Assembly: GCA_020850315.1 (NCBI GenBank)
Contig: JADZEY010000111.1
Coordinates: forward strand, 1-41,625
From: Armatimonadota bacterium
GTDB taxonomy: Bacteria > Bacteroidota > Ignavibacteria > OLB7
Reading direction: 5' to 3'
DNA: 41,625 nucleotides
Each line of letters opens with the position of its first letter. The stretch's first letter is position 1. The position numbers and the translations under genes were made by a program. Shown here piece by piece: positions 6,557 to 29,058 of this stretch. The notes below the pieces were generated by a model, which saw nothing but the letters and a program-made list of their open reading frames with translations, did not search any database and had not been told where the DNA came from.

Positions 6557-6629
6557 GCCACCATAGCTCAGTTGGTAGAGCAGCTCATTCGTAATGAGCA
6601 GGTCCACGGTTCGAGTCCGTGTGGTGGCT
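6557..6629 (+). tRNA. tRNA-Thr (anticodon CGT)
   Basis: A full cloverleaf can be drawn. The acceptor stem pairs GCCACCA (6557-6563) with TGGTGGC (6622-6628), with discriminator T at 6629. The D arm contains AGCTCAGTTGGTAGAGC. The anticodon arm pairs GCTCA with TGAGC around TTCGTAA, giving anticodon CGT for the threonine codon ACG. The T arm contains GGTTCGAGTCC. The 3' CCA is not encoded. It is transcribed alone between its own promoter and a hairpin terminator. Confidence 0.96.
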
Positions 6630-6712: not shown

Positions 6713-9139
6713 ATGCCAACCTCCCTTCGCTTACCGTTCCGCTGCTGCTTGCTGGTTGCTGCCATTCTTCTTTCAGCCCAGGAAGCTCTCCCCCAATCCA
6801 TTTTCGACATCAATTTTGGCGGCGCGCGGTCGCATCCGTTCGATGTTCAGCATATCGCGGTTGATGTTCGGTTCAATCTGGAACGGAAGGAGGTGAGCGG
6901 CACGGTGCAGCACCGAATCCGCTCGCTGGCGAACCCACTTGCGCAACTTCGGATAGATGCGGCATCCACCATGAATTTCACCGCAATCACAGTGGATGGC
7001 CGCCCAGCCCAGTATCAGCATTCCGGCGATACCCTGACGGTGATGCTCCCCACGCCGCGCCCCTACAACGACACGTTCACGGTCTCCATCAGCTACAACG
7101 TCATCCCGAACAAGGGCCTCTACTTTATCACCCCCAACACGAACGCCGGCAATCGGTATCAAATCTGGACGCAGGGGGAAGCCGAGGACAACCGCTACTG
7201 GTTGCCATGCTACGATTATCCGAACGACCGCGCCACCAGCGAACTACGCGCCACCATCCCCGCCGGATGGAAACTCCTTTCCAACGGCCTGCTACGCTCC
7301 ACCACCACCAACCCCGACAGCACAACAACGTGGCATTGGTTCCAAACAAAGGATCATGCAAGCTACCTGATAATGCTGGCAGCCGGGGACTACCTGGTCA
7401 CGCGCGACACCGCCGATGGAATCCCCTTGGAGTATTGGAGCTACCCAGATATGCCGGAGCGCGTCGGCCCAACGTTTGCCCGCACCCCCGATGTAATGCG
7501 CTATCTGGCCAGCAAATTGGGCGTTCCCTATCCCTGGGAGAAATATGCCCAAGTGATGATTGCCAATTTCATGTACGGCGGAATGGAGAACACCACCGCC
7601 ACCACACTGAACGATGATGCACTGGTTGATGAACGTGGATTGATTGATTACAACCCCGATAAATTGATTGCCCACGAAGCTGCCCACCAATGGTTTGGCG
7701 ACCTGGTGACCAACCGAAGCTGGGGCCACCTTTGGCTTCACGAGAGCTATGCCACCTACCTTGCCGCACGCTTCTGCGGCCACTACTACGGCGATGATGT
7801 TTTTGCGAAGGAGATGTACGATGCCGGAACCACCGCCGAAGCAACCGACAAGTGGGAGGGGCGCAACCCCATTGCCAACGGCAGAGGCATCCCCCAAAAC
7901 ATCTACCAACGGGGGGCGCGGGTGCTGCAGATGCTTTGCCAGTTGGTGGGGGAAGATCAGTTCTGGCGCGCAAACCAACTGTTCTTGCAACGCCACGCCC
8001 ACGGGCTGGTGGAATCAAACGACCTGAAACTTGCCTTCGAAGATGCCACAGGGCTGAACCTTGATTGGTTCTTCCGGCAGTGGATCTACGGCGCGGGAAT
8101 GCCACAATTTGCGGTGGAGAAAACGTGGGAGGATGGCCGGCTTCAACTGGTTGTTCGGCAGATCCAAACGTGCGACTCACTTACTGGCATATTTCGCGCA
8201 CCGGTTCCGATTGAGTTTCACCTTGCCGACCGGATTCTGGCCGACACCGTTTGGGTTTCGCACGCTGCCGACACGTTCCGGTTCCCGCTTCCGTCGCCGC
8301 CGAAGTTTGTGATCTTTGATGCTGGTGATGTTCTGCTAAAAACCGTTGAGTTCCGCCGCACCACCGATGAACTGATTGCGCAGCTTCAGGCCCCCCGAAT
8401 GATTGACCGATTGCTGGCAGTGCAAGAACTTGCGCGGATGAAGCCTGCAAAAAGAAATGCCGAGCAGAGGGCTCGCGCCATTGCCGAGCAGTTCCAGCGC
8501 GAACCTTCGCCGTTTGTGCGGCGCCAGATGCTAAACCGCATTGGAACAATTGACGAAACCGTTGGGGCCGCGATGCTGGCCCAAGCAATCCACGACCCCG
8601 ATGCCGACGTGCGCCGCGAGGCCGTAGAATCGGCTTGGATAATCCCAAACGAGGAGCGCGCCAGGCTGCTGCGCCCGCTGCTGCGCGACAGCAGTTTCAG
8701 CGTTATCAACGCCACGCTGGGGGTGCTGGCCACAACCGACACAGCTGGGCTGGAGCCATACTTGTTGGAGATGCACGGGAAGAAAGGGAGGCGGGAAAGG
8801 TTGGCACAAGGGTGGCTGGGCGCGGTTGCTGCCGGGAAATTCACACAGTTTGTGGATGCCGCCGTTGAGTACACAACCGAGCCGTTCAGCCGCCACACCC
8901 GCGCCGATGCCTACCAGACATTATCGGCGCTTGACACCACCACATCCAACGCCCGCGCAGCAATTCTGCGGGGCATTGTTGATGAATCCGACCGTGTCCG
9001 CGCCGCCGCCGCCACCGCCGCCGCCCGCCACCTTGATGATGCACTCCGCACCGCACTGCAAACCCTTCAGAACAACACAACCGAAGAAGCAAAAGAGGTG
9101 ATTGAAAAAGTGCTGGAAGGGGATTGGGAGGAAGAATAA
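6713..9139 (+). CDS. M1-family zinc aminopeptidase with C-terminal HEAT-like repeats
   Basis: This 808-residue secreted peptidase removes N-terminal amino acids from peptides. A signal peptide covers about residues 1-28. The catalytic zinc motif HEAAHQW starts at His321 (ligands H321 and H325, catalytic Glu322), and the third ligand Glu344 lies in LWLHESYATYLA, an exact HExxH-x18-E. The substrate-binding loop usually written GAMEN reads GGMEN (289-293). After about residue 560 the sequence turns into alpha-helical repeats (RRQMLNRIG..., DPDADVRREAVESAW), as in the HEAT-like tail of M1 enzymes. It probably works in the periplasm or at the surface. It follows the tRNA terminator and appears monocistronic. 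Confidence 0.92.
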   Translation: MPTSLRLPFRCCLLVAAILLSAQEALPQSIFDINFGGARSHPFDVQHIAVDVRFNLERKEVSGTVQHRIRSLANPLAQLRIDAASTMNFTAITVDGRPAQYQHSGDTLTVMLPTPRPYNDTFTVSISYNVIPNKGLYFITPNTNAGNRYQIWTQGEAEDNRYWLPCYDYPNDRATSELRATIPAGWKLLSNGLLRSTTTNPDSTTTWHWFQTKDHASYLIMLAAGDYLVTRDTADGIPLEYWSYPDMPERVGPTFARTPDVMRYLASKLGVPYPWEKYAQVMIANFMYGGMENTTATTLNDDALVDERGLIDYNPDKLIAHEAAHQWFGDLVTNRSWGHLWLHESYATYLAARFCGHYYGDDVFAKEMYDAGTTAEATDKWEGRNPIANGRGIPQNIYQRGARVLQMLCQLVGEDQFWRANQLFLQRHAHGLVESNDLKLAFEDATGLNLDWFFRQWIYGAGMPQFAVEKTWEDGRLQLVVRQIQTCDSLTGIFRAPVPIEFHLADRILADTVWVSHAADTFRFPLPSPPKFVIFDAGDVLLKTVEFRRTTDELIAQLQAPRMIDRLLAVQELARMKPAKRNAEQRARAIAEQFQREPSPFVRRQMLNRIGTIDETVGAAMLAQAIHDPDADVRREAVESAWIIPNEERARLLRPLLRDSSFSVINATLGVLATTDTAGLEPYLLEMHGKKGRRERLAQGWLGAVAAGKFTQFVDAAVEYTTEPFSRHTRADAYQTLSALDTTTSNARAAILRGIVDESDRVRAAAATAAARHLDDALRTALQTLQNNTTEEAKEVIEKVLEGDWEEE

Positions 9140-25521: not shown

Positions 25522-26733
25522 CTACTCCGGCAACCACTGGTATCCAATTCCCAGCCGGAAGCCAACGTAGTATTGCTTCCAGTCGGCATCCTTCAGCACG
25601 GAGTTGAGTTGGCGGCTGAGGAATGCTTCAAAGAAGAATGTTCCGAACTCTGCCGACACATTCCATCCCAACGCCACTTCGGCTCCGGTGCGGACGCGAT
25701 CAAGCTGGTTCAGTGTTCGCTGATCCATCAGGGTCAGCGTATCCATCCCGTTGCCATACCGCAAATCTTCTTTCACATTGGCAAGCTGCACATACTGCGT
25801 TGCTTTGCTGCTGACGGTGTATGCCCCCGAAACGCCAACGTTCAGGTAGTAGTACGAGCCGATCGTCACCGCTTCCGAAACCAAAAACACACCGTAGAAG
25901 GGGATGCTGATCCCGATCTTCCCGGCCACCGCGTACTGGTTCAAGAACAACGTGTTCACTTCTTTCAGCGAGCCTTTGTTGCCAGCTAAGGTGAGGTAGC
26001 TGCGGGTGGTGTCGTTGGAGAACAGCACCCCATCGGCGATTTGCAACGCGGCGTCGGCCCGAAGAATTGCGGGCATCGGCAAGTTCAGTGTGAAGCTAAA
26101 CCCGTATTCCGAAAAATTGGTGACGGGATAGACCGCATCCTCAATCTCCTTGTTCTGGTTCGGCTGCTGAATCTCCCGCTCGCCCGAACTGTACGGGTCG
26201 CCGTGGTTGAACGGCGCGGTTGTTGGAACAAACCCGCTTGATCGAATATCGTTCGCATGGTCGTACACGTCGGCGTAGGGGAAGAGCGCGGTGAAGGAGA
26301 GCGAGCGCGCCGCAAACGCCTGCGGAAACCAGCCATGCGAGTAATGCTTGATAAGATCATCCACCAAGTCGTTCATATCTGGCCCTTCTGAATCAAGCCC
26401 GATGGATTTCCAGAGTGAGTCTTGCTCGGCTTGGTACAGCGAATCTTGCCGCGCCTGCTGCGCCGAATCAAGCGGTGGCGGCTGCTGGGCGATGGTGTCG
26501 GGAAGGTTTAGGCGAACGGTGTCTTGTGGCAATGCCGGCGGCGGCACCATCCGCCGCCGTGCCGATGTGTCGGCTGGAGGTTGTGTGGGGGCCGGGCGGG
26601 GATTACGGCGACCACCGCGGCGTTGCGCGTCGGCATCGGTTGTGGCGGCAAGCAGAAACAGCAACGCCACCGCAAGCACCCGGAGCATACTCCGGGAAGT
26701 GAGAGGAAATAGAGTAAGCATCAGGTTCTTCAT
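25522..26733 (-). CDS. Outer-membrane beta-barrel protein with Pro-rich N-terminus
   Basis: The start at ATG 26733 overlaps the TGA of the upstream gene by four bases (ATGA), which indicates coupling; the frame from 26790 is rejected. The 403 residues contain a signal peptide (about 1-37), a basic Pro/Arg-rich linker (RRGGRRNPRPAPTQPP), a short helical SAQQARQDSLYQAEQDSLW segment, then alternating beta-strands (YGFSFTLNLPMPAILRADAAL, KIGISIPFYGVFLVSEAVTIG, YYYLNVGVSGAYTV, YYVGFRLGIGYQW). The last residues form an amphipathic terminal strand, as in outer-membrane barrels. It is the third gene of an envelope operon. I recognise no named family. Confidence 0.75.
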   Translation of the reverse strand: MKNLMLTLFPLTSRSMLRVLAVALLFLLAATTDADAQRRGGRRNPRPAPTQPPADTSARRRMVPPPALPQDTVRLNLPDTIAQQPPPLDSAQQARQDSLYQAEQDSLWKSIGLDSEGPDMNDLVDDLIKHYSHGWFPQAFAARSLSFTALFPYADVYDHANDIRSSGFVPTTAPFNHGDPYSSGEREIQQPNQNKEIEDAVYPVTNFSEYGFSFTLNLPMPAILRADAALQIADGVLFSNDTTRSYLTLAGNKGSLKEVNTLFLNQYAVAGKIGISIPFYGVFLVSEAVTIGSYYYLNVGVSGAYTVSSKATQYVQLANVKEDLRYGNGMDTLTLMDQRTLNQLDRVRTGAEVALGWNVSAEFGTFFFEAFLSRQLNSVLKDADWKQYYVGFRLGIGYQWLPE

Positions 26734-27545
26734 CGTAGGACGTGCATCGGTTTGTGGGCTTCTCCGCTGTTGGTCACCAGTCGCGCCCAATACACGCCAA
26801 CCGAGACATCGTAGCCTGGGGTGAACGTGATAAGATGGATCCCCGCCGGAACAAACCCCTGGTCAAGGATGGTGTACTCCTCTCCAAGATCGGTGTACAG
26901 GATCAGTTTCACGGGGGAATCTTTGTCAATCCGGTAGGCCCATGTTGTTGGGGTGAACCGAAGCACAGGGTTCGGATAATTCTGCTCCAACGTGGCAAAC
27001 CGCACGTACGGGCGTGGTGTTCCGATTGAAGTTGTGGTGATGGTTCCGGTGGCCGCGCCAACCTCACCTCCATTCAGCCGAAGGCTGCTGAAGCTGACAA
27101 CGCACACCGAGTCGTTCCCCGCCAACGCCTCCCCGGCCAGCCGAACAATCGTGTCCCCTTCGGCGCGTGGGGTCGCGCTTCCGGTGCGGATCGTTATCGC
27201 GAAGGTGAAGGTGCTGTCGGTAAGTTTTGTTAGGCGTTGCGCGATTGCTGTATCGCCAGCGGCCACCGCAAACCGCTCCGGGAAAAACACCGTTGGGTTG
27301 CTGAGTTGGAACGCCCCCTCGATAGTGATCGTTGCTCCGGTGTCAACTCCATTAGCAAGCCGTAGCGGAAGCTGGACCTCTTTCCCAACAAAACCGTGAG
27401 TATTGCCGGCAAGTATCTGGGCCGTGGTTGCTTGCGGAAGCAGGGAAAGAAAAAAACCACAGAGGCACAGAGTACACAGAGAAGGGAGAAGAGAGAAATG
27501 GGAACGGATTCCGTGCTGTTGCTTGAATCTTGTAAAAACTCTCAC
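26730..27545 (-). CDS. T9SS-targeted secreted protein, GTG start
   Basis: GTG at 27545 is chosen as start, with GGGAGG placed 8 bases upstream and overlapping the stop of the preceding gene. This gives 271 residues with a signal peptide ending near ATTAQ. The longer frame to 27764 overlaps the OmpA-like gene heavily and is rejected. The middle is a beta-rich domain resembling cohesin or Ig-like folds (KEVQLPLRLANGVDTGATI, TIEGAFQLSNPTVFFPE). The last 80 residues are a T9SS type A sorting domain: LEQNYPNPVLRFTPTTWAYR and a final VYWARLVTNSGEAHKPMHVL. It lies 4 bp after the OmpA-like gene and overlaps the barrel gene by four bases. Confidence 0.8.
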   Translation of the reverse strand: MRVFTRFKQQHGIRSHFSLLPSLCTLCLCGFFLSLLPQATTAQILAGNTHGFVGKEVQLPLRLANGVDTGATITIEGAFQLSNPTVFFPERFAVAAGDTAIAQRLTKLTDSTFTFAITIRTGSATPRAEGDTIVRLAGEALAGNDSVCVVSFSSLRLNGGEVGAATGTITTTSIGTPRPYVRFATLEQNYPNPVLRFTPTTWAYRIDKDSPVKLILYTDLGEEYTILDQGFVPAGIHLITFTPGYDVSVGVYWARLVTNSGEAHKPMHVLR

Positions 27546-27549
27546 TGCC

Positions 27550-29058
27550 TCACCTCCCGATAATGACAAATTCCGTGCGGCGATTTTTCCGGCGGTTGTC
27601 GTCGTTGTCGTTGGCCACAATCGGCTTCGATTCGCCGAATCCTTTTGCCACCAAACGGTTCCGTCCGATGCCCATTTCCACCAACGATTCCAGCACCGAT
27701 TCGGCGCGTTTTTCCGATAGCCGCTGGTTGTAGTCTTCGCCGCCGCGGTCGTCGGTGTGGCCACGGATTTCCATTATCAATTTTGGATTATTTCGCATCG
27801 CCTCGGCCACCTGCCCCAACAGCGGAAGCGATTCGGGGCGGATGGTTGCCTTGTCGTACTCGAACTCGATGTTCACAAAAGCGATTGTTCCCACAGGGGC
27901 GAACGGGGTGAAGATGGAGCGGTCGTAGGTCCCGTAGTCGCTGACGGTGAACCCTTGCAGTTCGGGGAAGCTAAGCCAGGCGCGGGCCGTGTGGCGCGCA
28001 TCGCACTGCGGCGGGCGGTAGGTGATTCGGTAGTAGTTGTTCATGCTGCGGTAGATGTCGGCAAAAACGTAGGGGAACTCCTTGGTGCTGTACAGCCGGT
28101 AGAACCGCCCGCCGGTGTAGCCAGCAAGGTTTCGCATCGGTTCTTCCTCGGCCATCCCGTAGGCCACCGTGTAGATTGCTGTGTTGGTTTCCCGCGCAAT
28201 CCGGTGCACCGATTCCAGCGTGCTGTCGGAACTATTGTCGCCGCCATCGCTGAAAAGAATTGCCACCCGCTTGTATCCCGCCGGGGCTTTTTTTAGTTCA
28301 TCAATGCCGCGCAACGTGCCGTCGTACATGGCGGTTCCCCCTTCGTAGCCACGCAAGCCATCAATCTGGAACAGGCGTTTGTACAAGCCGCTGTCGGCGG
28401 TGAGTGGGACCTCCACTTTCATGGTGGAGGTGAATTTTACCACCGTGATCATATCCCCCTTCTTTATCACTTTCAGCAGCAGTGTGATTGCTTCTTGCAG
28501 CTTGCGGGCGCGGGCTTCCCCCATCGAAGGTGAGTGATCCAGCACCAGCGCAATGGCGTATGGCTCGCGGCGGTCCTGGCGGATTTCAGTAACGGTAAAG
28601 CTGTCAATGGTGGTGGTGGTTCCGTTGCAGGAATCCACCAACCGTTGCCAGTAGTTGCGGTAGCTCCCTTGCCCGGCGAAGTATGGCGGGGCAAGCCCCA
28701 TCACAAAACGCCCGTTGGTATCGAACACAAAGGCGCGAAGCTCAATCTGGTTTGGGTAGCGGCTGTCATCTACCGTGCGAATATCCATCTGCAGTGGCAG
28801 CAACGCTGCAGCTGCCGAGTCGGCCCCGGAACCGATCACCGTTCCGGTTGTGATGCCGCCGGTTCCCACGGTGATCTTCCCTTTCCACGCTTCAATCACT
28901 TGGCCGAACGGCGTGGTGGAGGTCATGTAGATTGGCTTGTAATCCTTTGGGGGGAGCGTCTCCTCCACCATACTTTCGATATGATGGGGGCAGCCGCCCA
29001 ACAGCAGTGTTAGCGGAAGCAATGCCAGCAGCACTGCACGGCGTAGAAGTTCAGTCAT
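27550..29058 (-). CDS. VWA- and OmpA-domain lipoprotein
   Basis: The 502-residue protein has a lipobox LLGGC with the lipidated cysteine at C23. A von Willebrand A domain begins at about residue 165, with the metal site DHSPSMG (D174, S176, S178) and GGTAMYDGT and FSDGGDNSSDS completing it. The C-terminal 110 residues are an OmpA peptidoglycan-binding domain: NIEFEYDKATIRPESLPLLG, EIRGHTDDRGGEDYNQRLSE, KRAESVLESL and NRRTEFVIIG. It should link the outer membrane to the cell wall and use the VWA domain to hold a partner. The next two genes, a T9SS client and a barrel protein, are translationally coupled to it and are candidate partners. Confidence 0.92.
   Translation of the reverse strand: MTELLRRAVLLALLPLTLLLGGCPHHIESMVEETLPPKDYKPIYMTSTTPFGQVIEAWKGKITVGTGGITTGTVIGSGADSAAAALLPLQMDIRTVDDSRYPNQIELRAFVFDTNGRFVMGLAPPYFAGQGSYRNYWQRLVDSCNGTTTTIDSFTVTEIRQDRREPYAIALVLDHSPSMGEARARKLQEAITLLLKVIKKGDMITVVKFTSTMKVEVPLTADSGLYKRLFQIDGLRGYEGGTAMYDGTLRGIDELKKAPAGYKRVAILFSDGGDNSSDSTLESVHRIARETNTAIYTVAYGMAEEEPMRNLAGYTGGRFYRLYSTKEFPYVFADIYRSMNNYYRITYRPPQCDARHTARAWLSFPELQGFTVSDYGTYDRSIFTPFAPVGTIAFVNIEFEYDKATIRPESLPLLGQVAEAMRNNPKLIMEIRGHTDDRGGEDYNQRLSEKRAESVLESLVEMGIGRNRLVAKGFGESKPIVANDNDDNRRKNRRTEFVIIGR

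Follow-up and report, generated by a model that had tools for sequence, protein, structure and literature searches.

A co-inherited trio of envelope genes in an Ignavibacteria genome: a proposed tether for a type IX surface protein, with a signal peptide apparently recruited from a dispersed repeat

Gene content of the locus

Three tightly coupled genes lie on the minus strand of contig JADZEY010000111.1 between positions 25,522 and 29,058, and encode a lipoprotein with VWA and OmpA domains (gene 1), a small putative client of the type IX secretion system (gene 2, product P0002) and an outer-membrane-type β protein (gene 3, product P0003). The contig stretch analysed, referred to here as the window, is 41,625 nucleotides long and belongs to assembly GCA_020850315.1, an Armatimonadota bacterium with the GTDB lineage Bacteroidota, Ignavibacteria, OLB7. 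The source genome (G000 in the numbering of genomes used here) comprises 4.24 Mb in 138 contigs at a completeness of 99.84%. The trio is a real, co-inherited three-part module and most likely acts as a type IX surface tether, built from new families but of a kind akin to type IX membrane partners already described. The features of the locus, in window positions, are as follows.

27550..29058, minus strand: gene 1, VWA-OmpA lipoprotein, 502 residues, ATG start (translation, Pfam, 12-member family alignment)
28990..28992, minus strand: lipobox cysteine C23 (LGGC-P) of gene 1; C23 and P24 invariant in 12/12, lipobox recognized by eye
28075..28554, minus strand: VWA domain of gene 1 with D174, S176, S178, T242 and D271 (Pfam bounds; residues invariant in 12/12)
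27580..27864, minus strand: OmpA peptidoglycan-binding domain of gene 1 (Pfam; D436, L447, S448, R451, A452 and V455 invariant in 12/12)
27553..27558, minus strand: GGGAGG, ribosome-binding site of gene 2 within the end of gene 1 (sequence; same in G001)
26730..27545, minus strand: gene 2 (P0002), putative small type IX client, 271 residues, GTG start (translation, family alignment)
27420..27545, minus strand: predicted signal peptide of gene 2, residues 1-42, ...ATTA/Q cleavage assigned by eye (alignment; hydrophobic peak at residues 25-36)
27458..27481, minus strand: repeat arm core, in frame in gene 2, encoding SLCTLCLCG (zero-mismatch pattern match; no indel in G001)
26994..27419, minus strand: body domain of gene 2 (LSNPTVFFP ... 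LAGxDS), ~140 residues (family alignment, body profile search)
26733..26993, minus strand: putative C-terminal sorting domain of gene 2 (TIGR04183 in the family; dN/dS 0.034)
26730..26733, minus strand: ATGA overlap of the gene 2 stop and gene 3 start (sequence)
25522..26733, minus strand: gene 3 (P0003), outer-membrane-type β protein, 403 residues (translation, family alignment, β periodicity)
26353..26622, minus strand: linker rich in proline and serine within gene 3, of variable length in the family and long in this genus (alignment)
25525..26352, minus strand: conserved β domain of gene 3, from the SHGWFP motif onward (alignment, dN/dS, β periodicity)

The initial annotation, made from the sequence alone, had described a 4-bp gap and a 4-bp overlap between the genes and a ribosome-binding site for the GTG-started middle gene at the end of the first, and all of this is confirmed. 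Gene 1 ends in ATC GGG AGG TGA, followed by GGCA (4 bp) up to the GTG of gene 2, and GGGAGG constitutes the final two sense codons of gene 1, directly abutting its TGA and lying 7 nt 5' of the GTG. Both the motif and its spacing before gene 2 are identical in the congener G001. Longer open reading frames for gene 2 (from a GTG at 27764) and gene 3 (from a TTG at 26790) were rejected as mechanical 5' extensions. Promoter and terminator scans of the window gave a yield not above that of shuffled sequence, and a tRNA-Thr at 6557 is both its sole tRNA and its sole hit to Rfam at the gathering score. In a comparison limited to one species pair, G000 and G001, the ratio of nonsynonymous to synonymous substitution rates (dN/dS) is 0.087 for gene 1, 0.136 for gene 2 and 0.112 for gene 3, falling to 0.034 in the sorting tail of gene 2 and to 0.067 in the conserved part of gene 3 (residue 126 on), against 0.41 in the gene 2 signal peptide. 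All three genes thus look functional and subject to purifying selection.

The description of gene 1 as a VWA-OmpA lipoprotein is well borne out, with both domains far above their Pfam cut-offs (VWA, PF00092, 66.0 bits against 23.8; OmpA, PF00691, 79.7 bits against 27.2) and the key residues of both conserved throughout the 12-member family alignment. These include the DxSxS...T...D signature of the VWA domain, which we take to be a metal ion-dependent adhesion site (MIDAS), and the LSxxRAxxV motif of the OmpA domain, whose residues are invariant in all 12 members. Gene 1 is accordingly classed as an OmpA-family lipoprotein, predicted to bind the cell wall, with intact metal-site residues. Lipoproteins of Bacteroidota that reach the cell surface carry an export signal after the lipobox cysteine; in gene 1 the cysteine is followed by a proline and no acidic run, and since this signal is absent the protein is likelier to face the periplasm than the surface. 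VWA and OmpA were the only family models above the Pfam cut-off, and no TPR, propeller or CRD match was obtained. All 59 rows of a PDB sequence search cover the OmpA region alone, as does the match to NF052230 (PorE), which reaches 85.5 bits against a cut-off of 600. In one relative, G335, a DUF58/VWA_2 gene (L112 8796-9689) lies immediately 5' of the VWA-OmpA gene and provides a second VWA protein in the run. A paralog of gene 1 elsewhere in the source genome (L087 2739-9798, contig C102) is clustered with a GH18-CUB protein, a 275-residue protein lacking Pfam domains and a Rax2/Kelch propeller protein whose sorting tail falls just below the Pfam cut-off, a probable type IX client; a neighbourhood of VWA-OmpA and type IX genes therefore recurs in G000.

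Gene 2 is best understood through its family. Among its 13 members, 8 are recognized by the sorting-domain model TIGR04183 at E ≤ 0.1 (best 3e-8) and 3 each by Por_Secre_tail and FlgD_ig, while P0002 as a single query matches 91 of 99 genomes, among the matches listed mostly via its last ~120 residues (from ~150), a pattern as would be expected of a shared sorting tail. The SprA/Sov translocon (TIGR04189) is found above cut-off in G000 and in 19 of 19 further genomes tested, and is present in all 17 genomes that carry the trio genes (16 of the 19, and G000). Membership of this family supports the assignment of gene 2 as a type IX client. Its body is less familiar, with no Pfam family at E ≤ 1 for the gene; PDB sequence searches returned FlgD (best E 0.03, 3 of 5 rows) and chance matches for the family, and chance matches only for the body alone. 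A cohesin-like fold, an idea formed by eye, is not claimed.

Gene 3 likewise stands apart from described families, and neither it nor the gene 2 body bears a convincing likeness to any named domain. No Pfam family lies above cut-off; among 18 family members no NCBIfam model and no PorP_SprF (PF11751) match was found at E ≤ 0.1, and OMP_b-brl_2 matches one of the 18 weakly (0.0014). A PDB sequence search returned nothing. A PorP_SprF search of the G000 genome was also negative, but its control was silent too and absence is not thereby established. On a hydropathy scale with raised aromatics, the protein displays a β-type alternation of hydrophobicity (z 3.5, reached by 1 of 2000 shuffles) over seven candidate strands, with a helix periodicity of z -1.7, and it likely forms a β-barrel.

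Distribution and co-inheritance of the three genes

A search with gene 3 in 99 genomes gave matches in 10, six of them strong, and a profile search extended to 395 genomes of the phylum gave 16 genomes with a match, 14 of them strong (E ≤ 1.9e-40). In the same 395 genomes a profile of the gene 2 body, from which the sorting tail was left out, likewise matched 16 genomes, 14 strongly (E ≤ 1.1e-27). For gene 1, 14 genomes score at least 567 bits and the next best 414, a division into orthologs and paralogs that was drawn after the scores were known, with the three best first-look candidates of each genome scored and all matches below 567 bits treated as paralogs. The strongly matching genomes are identical for the three genes (G000, G028, G097, G266, G273, G281, G305, G331, G335, G339, G373, G384, G396 and G443) and span six families, although the 14 are kin and their matching presence is not a count of independent events. 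Some of these genomes also supplied profile seeds, nine for gene 1, ten for gene 2 and three for gene 3, such that the non-seed genomes recovered among the 14 number 5, 4 and 11, respectively; the five for gene 1 score from 567.7 to 665.3 bits. Excluded as weak were gene 3 matches in G009, G037, G055 and G063 (E 7e-5 to 5e-4, in frames of ~800 residues), in G412 (E 1.9e-6) and in G424 (7.1e-5), with second matches in G266 and G339, and for gene 2 those in G070 and G420, second matches in G331, G335 and G396, and many tail matches. The C-terminal ends of the ~800-residue frames (L015-L018, L104 and L105) resemble the end of gene 3 at E 1.9e-6 to 5e-4 and perhaps represent a distant barrel family.

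Both samples combined yield 17 genomes with a confident gene 3, and in 12 of these the trio runs uninterrupted in one shared order (G000, G001, G002, G004, G097, G266, G281, G335, G339, G373, G396 and G443), which is more than chance would give and answers the first check that had been proposed for the operon. As measured to the nearest in-frame start codon, and hence for predicted starts, the junction of genes 1 and 2 ranges from a 4-bp overlap to a distance of 6 bp in 10 of the 12 contiguous trios (exceptions G335, +19, and G002, +82), and gene 3 begins within 4 bp of the gene 2 stop in 11 of 12 (exception G339, +36). The remaining five genomes, four from one family (G028, G273, G305 and G384) together with G331, carry genes 1 and 2 elsewhere in the genome. 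Because these genomes with scattered genes nevertheless retain all three, adjacency alone cannot explain the co-occurrence, and because the flanking genes, compared by eye, differ between lineages, the trio itself looks like the unit. In G331, whose genes 1 and 2 are on other contigs, the gene 3 homolog lies directly 3' of a phage-type integrase gene (L118 5906-7183 / 7232-8209; PF00589, 43.7 bits) that occupies the place expected of gene 2.

Families that carry the trio also include relatives that lack it, for example G003, G009 and G259, and the division can fall within a single genus, as G443 has strong matches to all three genes and G259 to none. Taken together, these distributions support the view that the three genes behave as one inherited unit, here in some bacteria that are probable kin of the green sulfur group; the initial annotation would have been contradicted by their independent occurrence in most genomes, and the opposite was found. 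As SprA is present in G003, G009 and G259, which lack the trio, the trio looks accessory to type IX secretion. The identical presence of three families in distant genomes ties them together, and a membrane partner for a type IX client can therefore be proposed from genomes alone, in a form that is directly testable.

A proposed trans-envelope tether and its alternatives

The genetic evidence laid out above, namely co-inheritance, gene order, tight junctions, conserved MIDAS and OmpA residues, purifying selection against one congener and SprA in 17 of 17 genomes, is the basis for a model in which the trio constitutes an accessory type IX module, with a wall-tied VWA-OmpA lipoprotein and a dedicated membrane protein that displays the client. 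We hold this model at slightly under an even chance. The client would be exported via Sec and then through the type IX translocon, after which the outer-membrane β protein encoded by gene 3, dedicated to this task, would retain the client's sorting or body domain on the outside of the cell. The VWA-OmpA lipoprotein would be lipid-anchored in the inner leaflet of the outer membrane, on the periplasmic side, where its metal-dependent VWA site may grip the gene 3 protein while its OmpA domain holds the wall. A surface client thus tied mechanically to peptidoglycan could serve as a fixed adhesin or receptor; this role, the localizations and the binding partners are what we infer. The initial annotation had envisaged one surface complex, of which the joint inheritance stands, whereas the lipoprotein now appears likelier to face the periplasm.

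Further insight into gene 3 comes from G028, G305 and G384, where its homolog follows a gene for a PD40-CarboxypepD_reg-OmpA protein (CarboxypepD_reg being above the Pfam cut-off in one of the three and below it in two), so gene 3 appears to pair with OmpA-type proteins in two settings. Since it follows another OmpA-type protein in these genomes, gene 3 may be a membrane partner of wall-anchoring proteins, and in the trio the gripping part would be the VWA domain encoded by gene 1.

Parallels can be drawn with several described type IX components. In Porphyromonas gingivalis, PorE (PG1058) is composed of TPR, propeller, CRD and then OmpA domains and is proposed to link periplasmic and outer-membrane parts of the secretion system (PMC5053529), while PorP was found together with PorK and PorN (PMC5445135). 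Gene 1 shares with PorE the character of an OmpA-type lipoprotein and probably its position at the periplasmic face of the outer membrane; unlike PorE, it has a VWA domain and no matches to TPR, propeller or CRD models. The OmpA-type proteins of G028, G305 and G384 have a PorE-like architecture minus the TPR part. Gene 3, in turn, differs from PorP/SprF in having no Pfam PorP_SprF match, and the whole differs from the PorE/PorP system in that SprA-bearing genomes without the trio exist. The trio therefore belongs to neither family, although its proposed mode of action resembles that of PorE-PorP. A second parallel is offered by PorV, proposed as the outer-membrane anchor of the surface type IX protein PorU (PMC5445135). 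As in PorU-PorV, a membrane β protein would hold a sorting-domain protein at the surface, but gene 3 has no NCBIfam match at E ≤ 0.1. To our knowledge, PorU-PorV has no known counterpart of a wall-binding VWA lipoprotein. Among the titles and opening lines of abstracts listed in searches for VWA-OmpA/type IX operons, none describes the trio.

Several observations weigh against the tether model. The assignment of the middle gene as a type IX client, already made in the initial annotation, holds for the family and agrees with the presence of SprA, but P0002 itself matches no sorting-domain model in Pfam or NCBIfam. The barrel proposed for gene 3 is in keeping with its β periodicity, but its assignment to the membrane comes from that periodicity and the single weak OMP_b-brl_2 match, and structure prediction for P0002 and P0003, each modelled with one relative, gave unusable models (predicted local distance difference test, pLDDT, 38.8 and 31.0). 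The distribution is not seamless either: the trio is not contiguous in five of the 17 genomes, VWA-OmpA paralogs occur in trio-less genomes including G259, G003 and G009, and the late choice of the gene 1 cut and the presence of profile seeds among the 14 genomes temper the identity of the three sets. G001 also carries a second, lone gene 3 homolog (L086 5232-6170, contig C113) that neither gene 1 nor gene 2 accompanies. To these must be added the sigma factor genes considered next.

A sensory role is an alternative that we consider unlikely, in which the client would not be mechanically tethered but would act as an uncleaved surface receptor, its signal reaching the cell interior by way of the membrane protein and the VWA lipoprotein. 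The model for this is PorA, a small protein with a signal peptide, an Ig-like domain and a sorting domain that affects PorXY-SigP signalling and has PorV as an interaction partner (PMC7712824). Gene 2 has the same layout, with a signal peptide, one ~140-residue domain and a sorting domain, but shows no similarity to PorA in the PDB sequence searches. A signalling role would suit the presence of sigma-70 family genes, with regions 2 and 4, near the trio in G266 (~1.4 kb past gene 3) and in G396 (~4.3 kb past gene 3, on the opposite strand), and a similar gene was seen by eye near the trio in G281 and G373. None of these genes adjoins the trio, however, and none was seen by eye in the other lineages inspected, whose neighbouring genes lack systematic annotation. 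The sigma-70 genes of G266 (L113 8131-8754) and G396 (L116 10823-11509) each adjoin a long frame without Pfam domains.

The trio might instead serve type IX secretion in general, as a factor of the PorE or PorP kind that every client requires for export. The combination of OmpA lipoprotein, membrane protein and client recalls PorE (PG1058) and PorP (PMC5053529; PMC5445135), and gene 3 adjoins a PorE-like architecture in three genomes. The absence of strong matches to any trio gene from G003, G009 and G259, where SprA is present (G009 having one weak gene 3 match, E 5.3e-4), makes the trio look dispensable for type IX secretion, and this explanation is improbable. Finally, the genes could be independent envelope genes that share an operon and form no joint device, as might be argued from the frequency of VWA-OmpA paralogs (38 of the 395 genomes at E ≤ 1e-80) and from the paralog in G000 that is clustered with a probable type IX client of its own. 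Strong matches to all three genes in an identical set of 14 of 395 genomes, scattered-gene genomes included, speak against such independence, which we regard as slightly less probable still.

A dispersed repeat within the gene 2 signal peptide

The signal peptide of gene 2 contains an unusual N-terminal stretch (SLLPSLCTLCLCGFFLSLL or SLLFSLCTLCLCGVSLFLL in G000 and G001), whose DNA is one arm of a dispersed palindromic repeat that the initial annotation had missed. Allowing up to three mismatches, the 24-base repeat pattern has 42 matches in G000 against two for a reversed control; with up to two mismatches there are 42 in G000 and 84 in G001, some in 14 of 99 genomes, and none in the family members G002, G003 and G004. 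Two of the 42 come from the same element, which appears twice because contig ends overlap there by 114 identical bases, leaving 40. The family is built on CTCTGTG units, with scattered copies in other bacterial families, and 22 of the 42 matches are arranged as inverted pairs, 11 in all or 10 once the contig overlap is discounted, spaced 45 to 62 bp apart from start to start, one of which folds as a hairpin with z -9.1. A RAYT/Y1 transposase was considered as the mover of the repeat and set aside, there being no Y1_Tnp match in G000.

Gene 2 carries just one arm, in frame and indel-free between G000 and G001, and the agreement of this copy with the consensus beyond the core is modest (45 of 71 compared positions). 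No in-frame ATG, GTG or TTG occurs between the GTG of gene 2 and the cleavage site in either genome, and the stretch therefore cannot be bypassed by use of an ordinary start codon. It is absent from the other 11 gene 2 family members in the alignment. The simplest account is that the ancestor of the genus gained an insertion of the element within this signal peptide and that the element's hydrophobic frame was kept as the signal core. With the repeat-free state seen in other family members and retention in the congener G001, this would be a clear example of a conserved gene whose export signal was provided by mobile DNA. The compound proposal, that the locus joins an undescribed trans-envelope, integrin-like tether to a genus-specific export signal for which a selfish palindromic repeat supplied the material, and which has stayed in frame in the two species sampled, is put forward tentatively.

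Repeats within genes are of a kind already known, since in-frame palindromic elements have been described in protein genes of Rickettsia, where fusions with predicted signal peptides are also mentioned (PMC2229807); bacterial miniature inverted-repeat transposable element fusions provide a further comparison (PMC2759123). The present repeat resembles the Rickettsia palindromic elements in being dispersed, palindromic, ~100 bp in length and in frame in a protein gene. It differs in being another repeat in another phylum, with one arm encoding a signal-peptide core that is missing from other gene 2 family members. Literature searches found no publication on this repeat sequence, and none of the entries listed in searches on repeats within genes described this instance of a repeat-encoded signal peptide.

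Thirty of the 42 repeat matches were inspected (L050-L079), and several fall in long open frames. In L053, L062 and L071, each at 1501-1524, repeat arms lie near the starts of open frames that exceed 500 codons and continue past the edge of the locus; these arms may precede the true start or may represent further signal-peptide captures.

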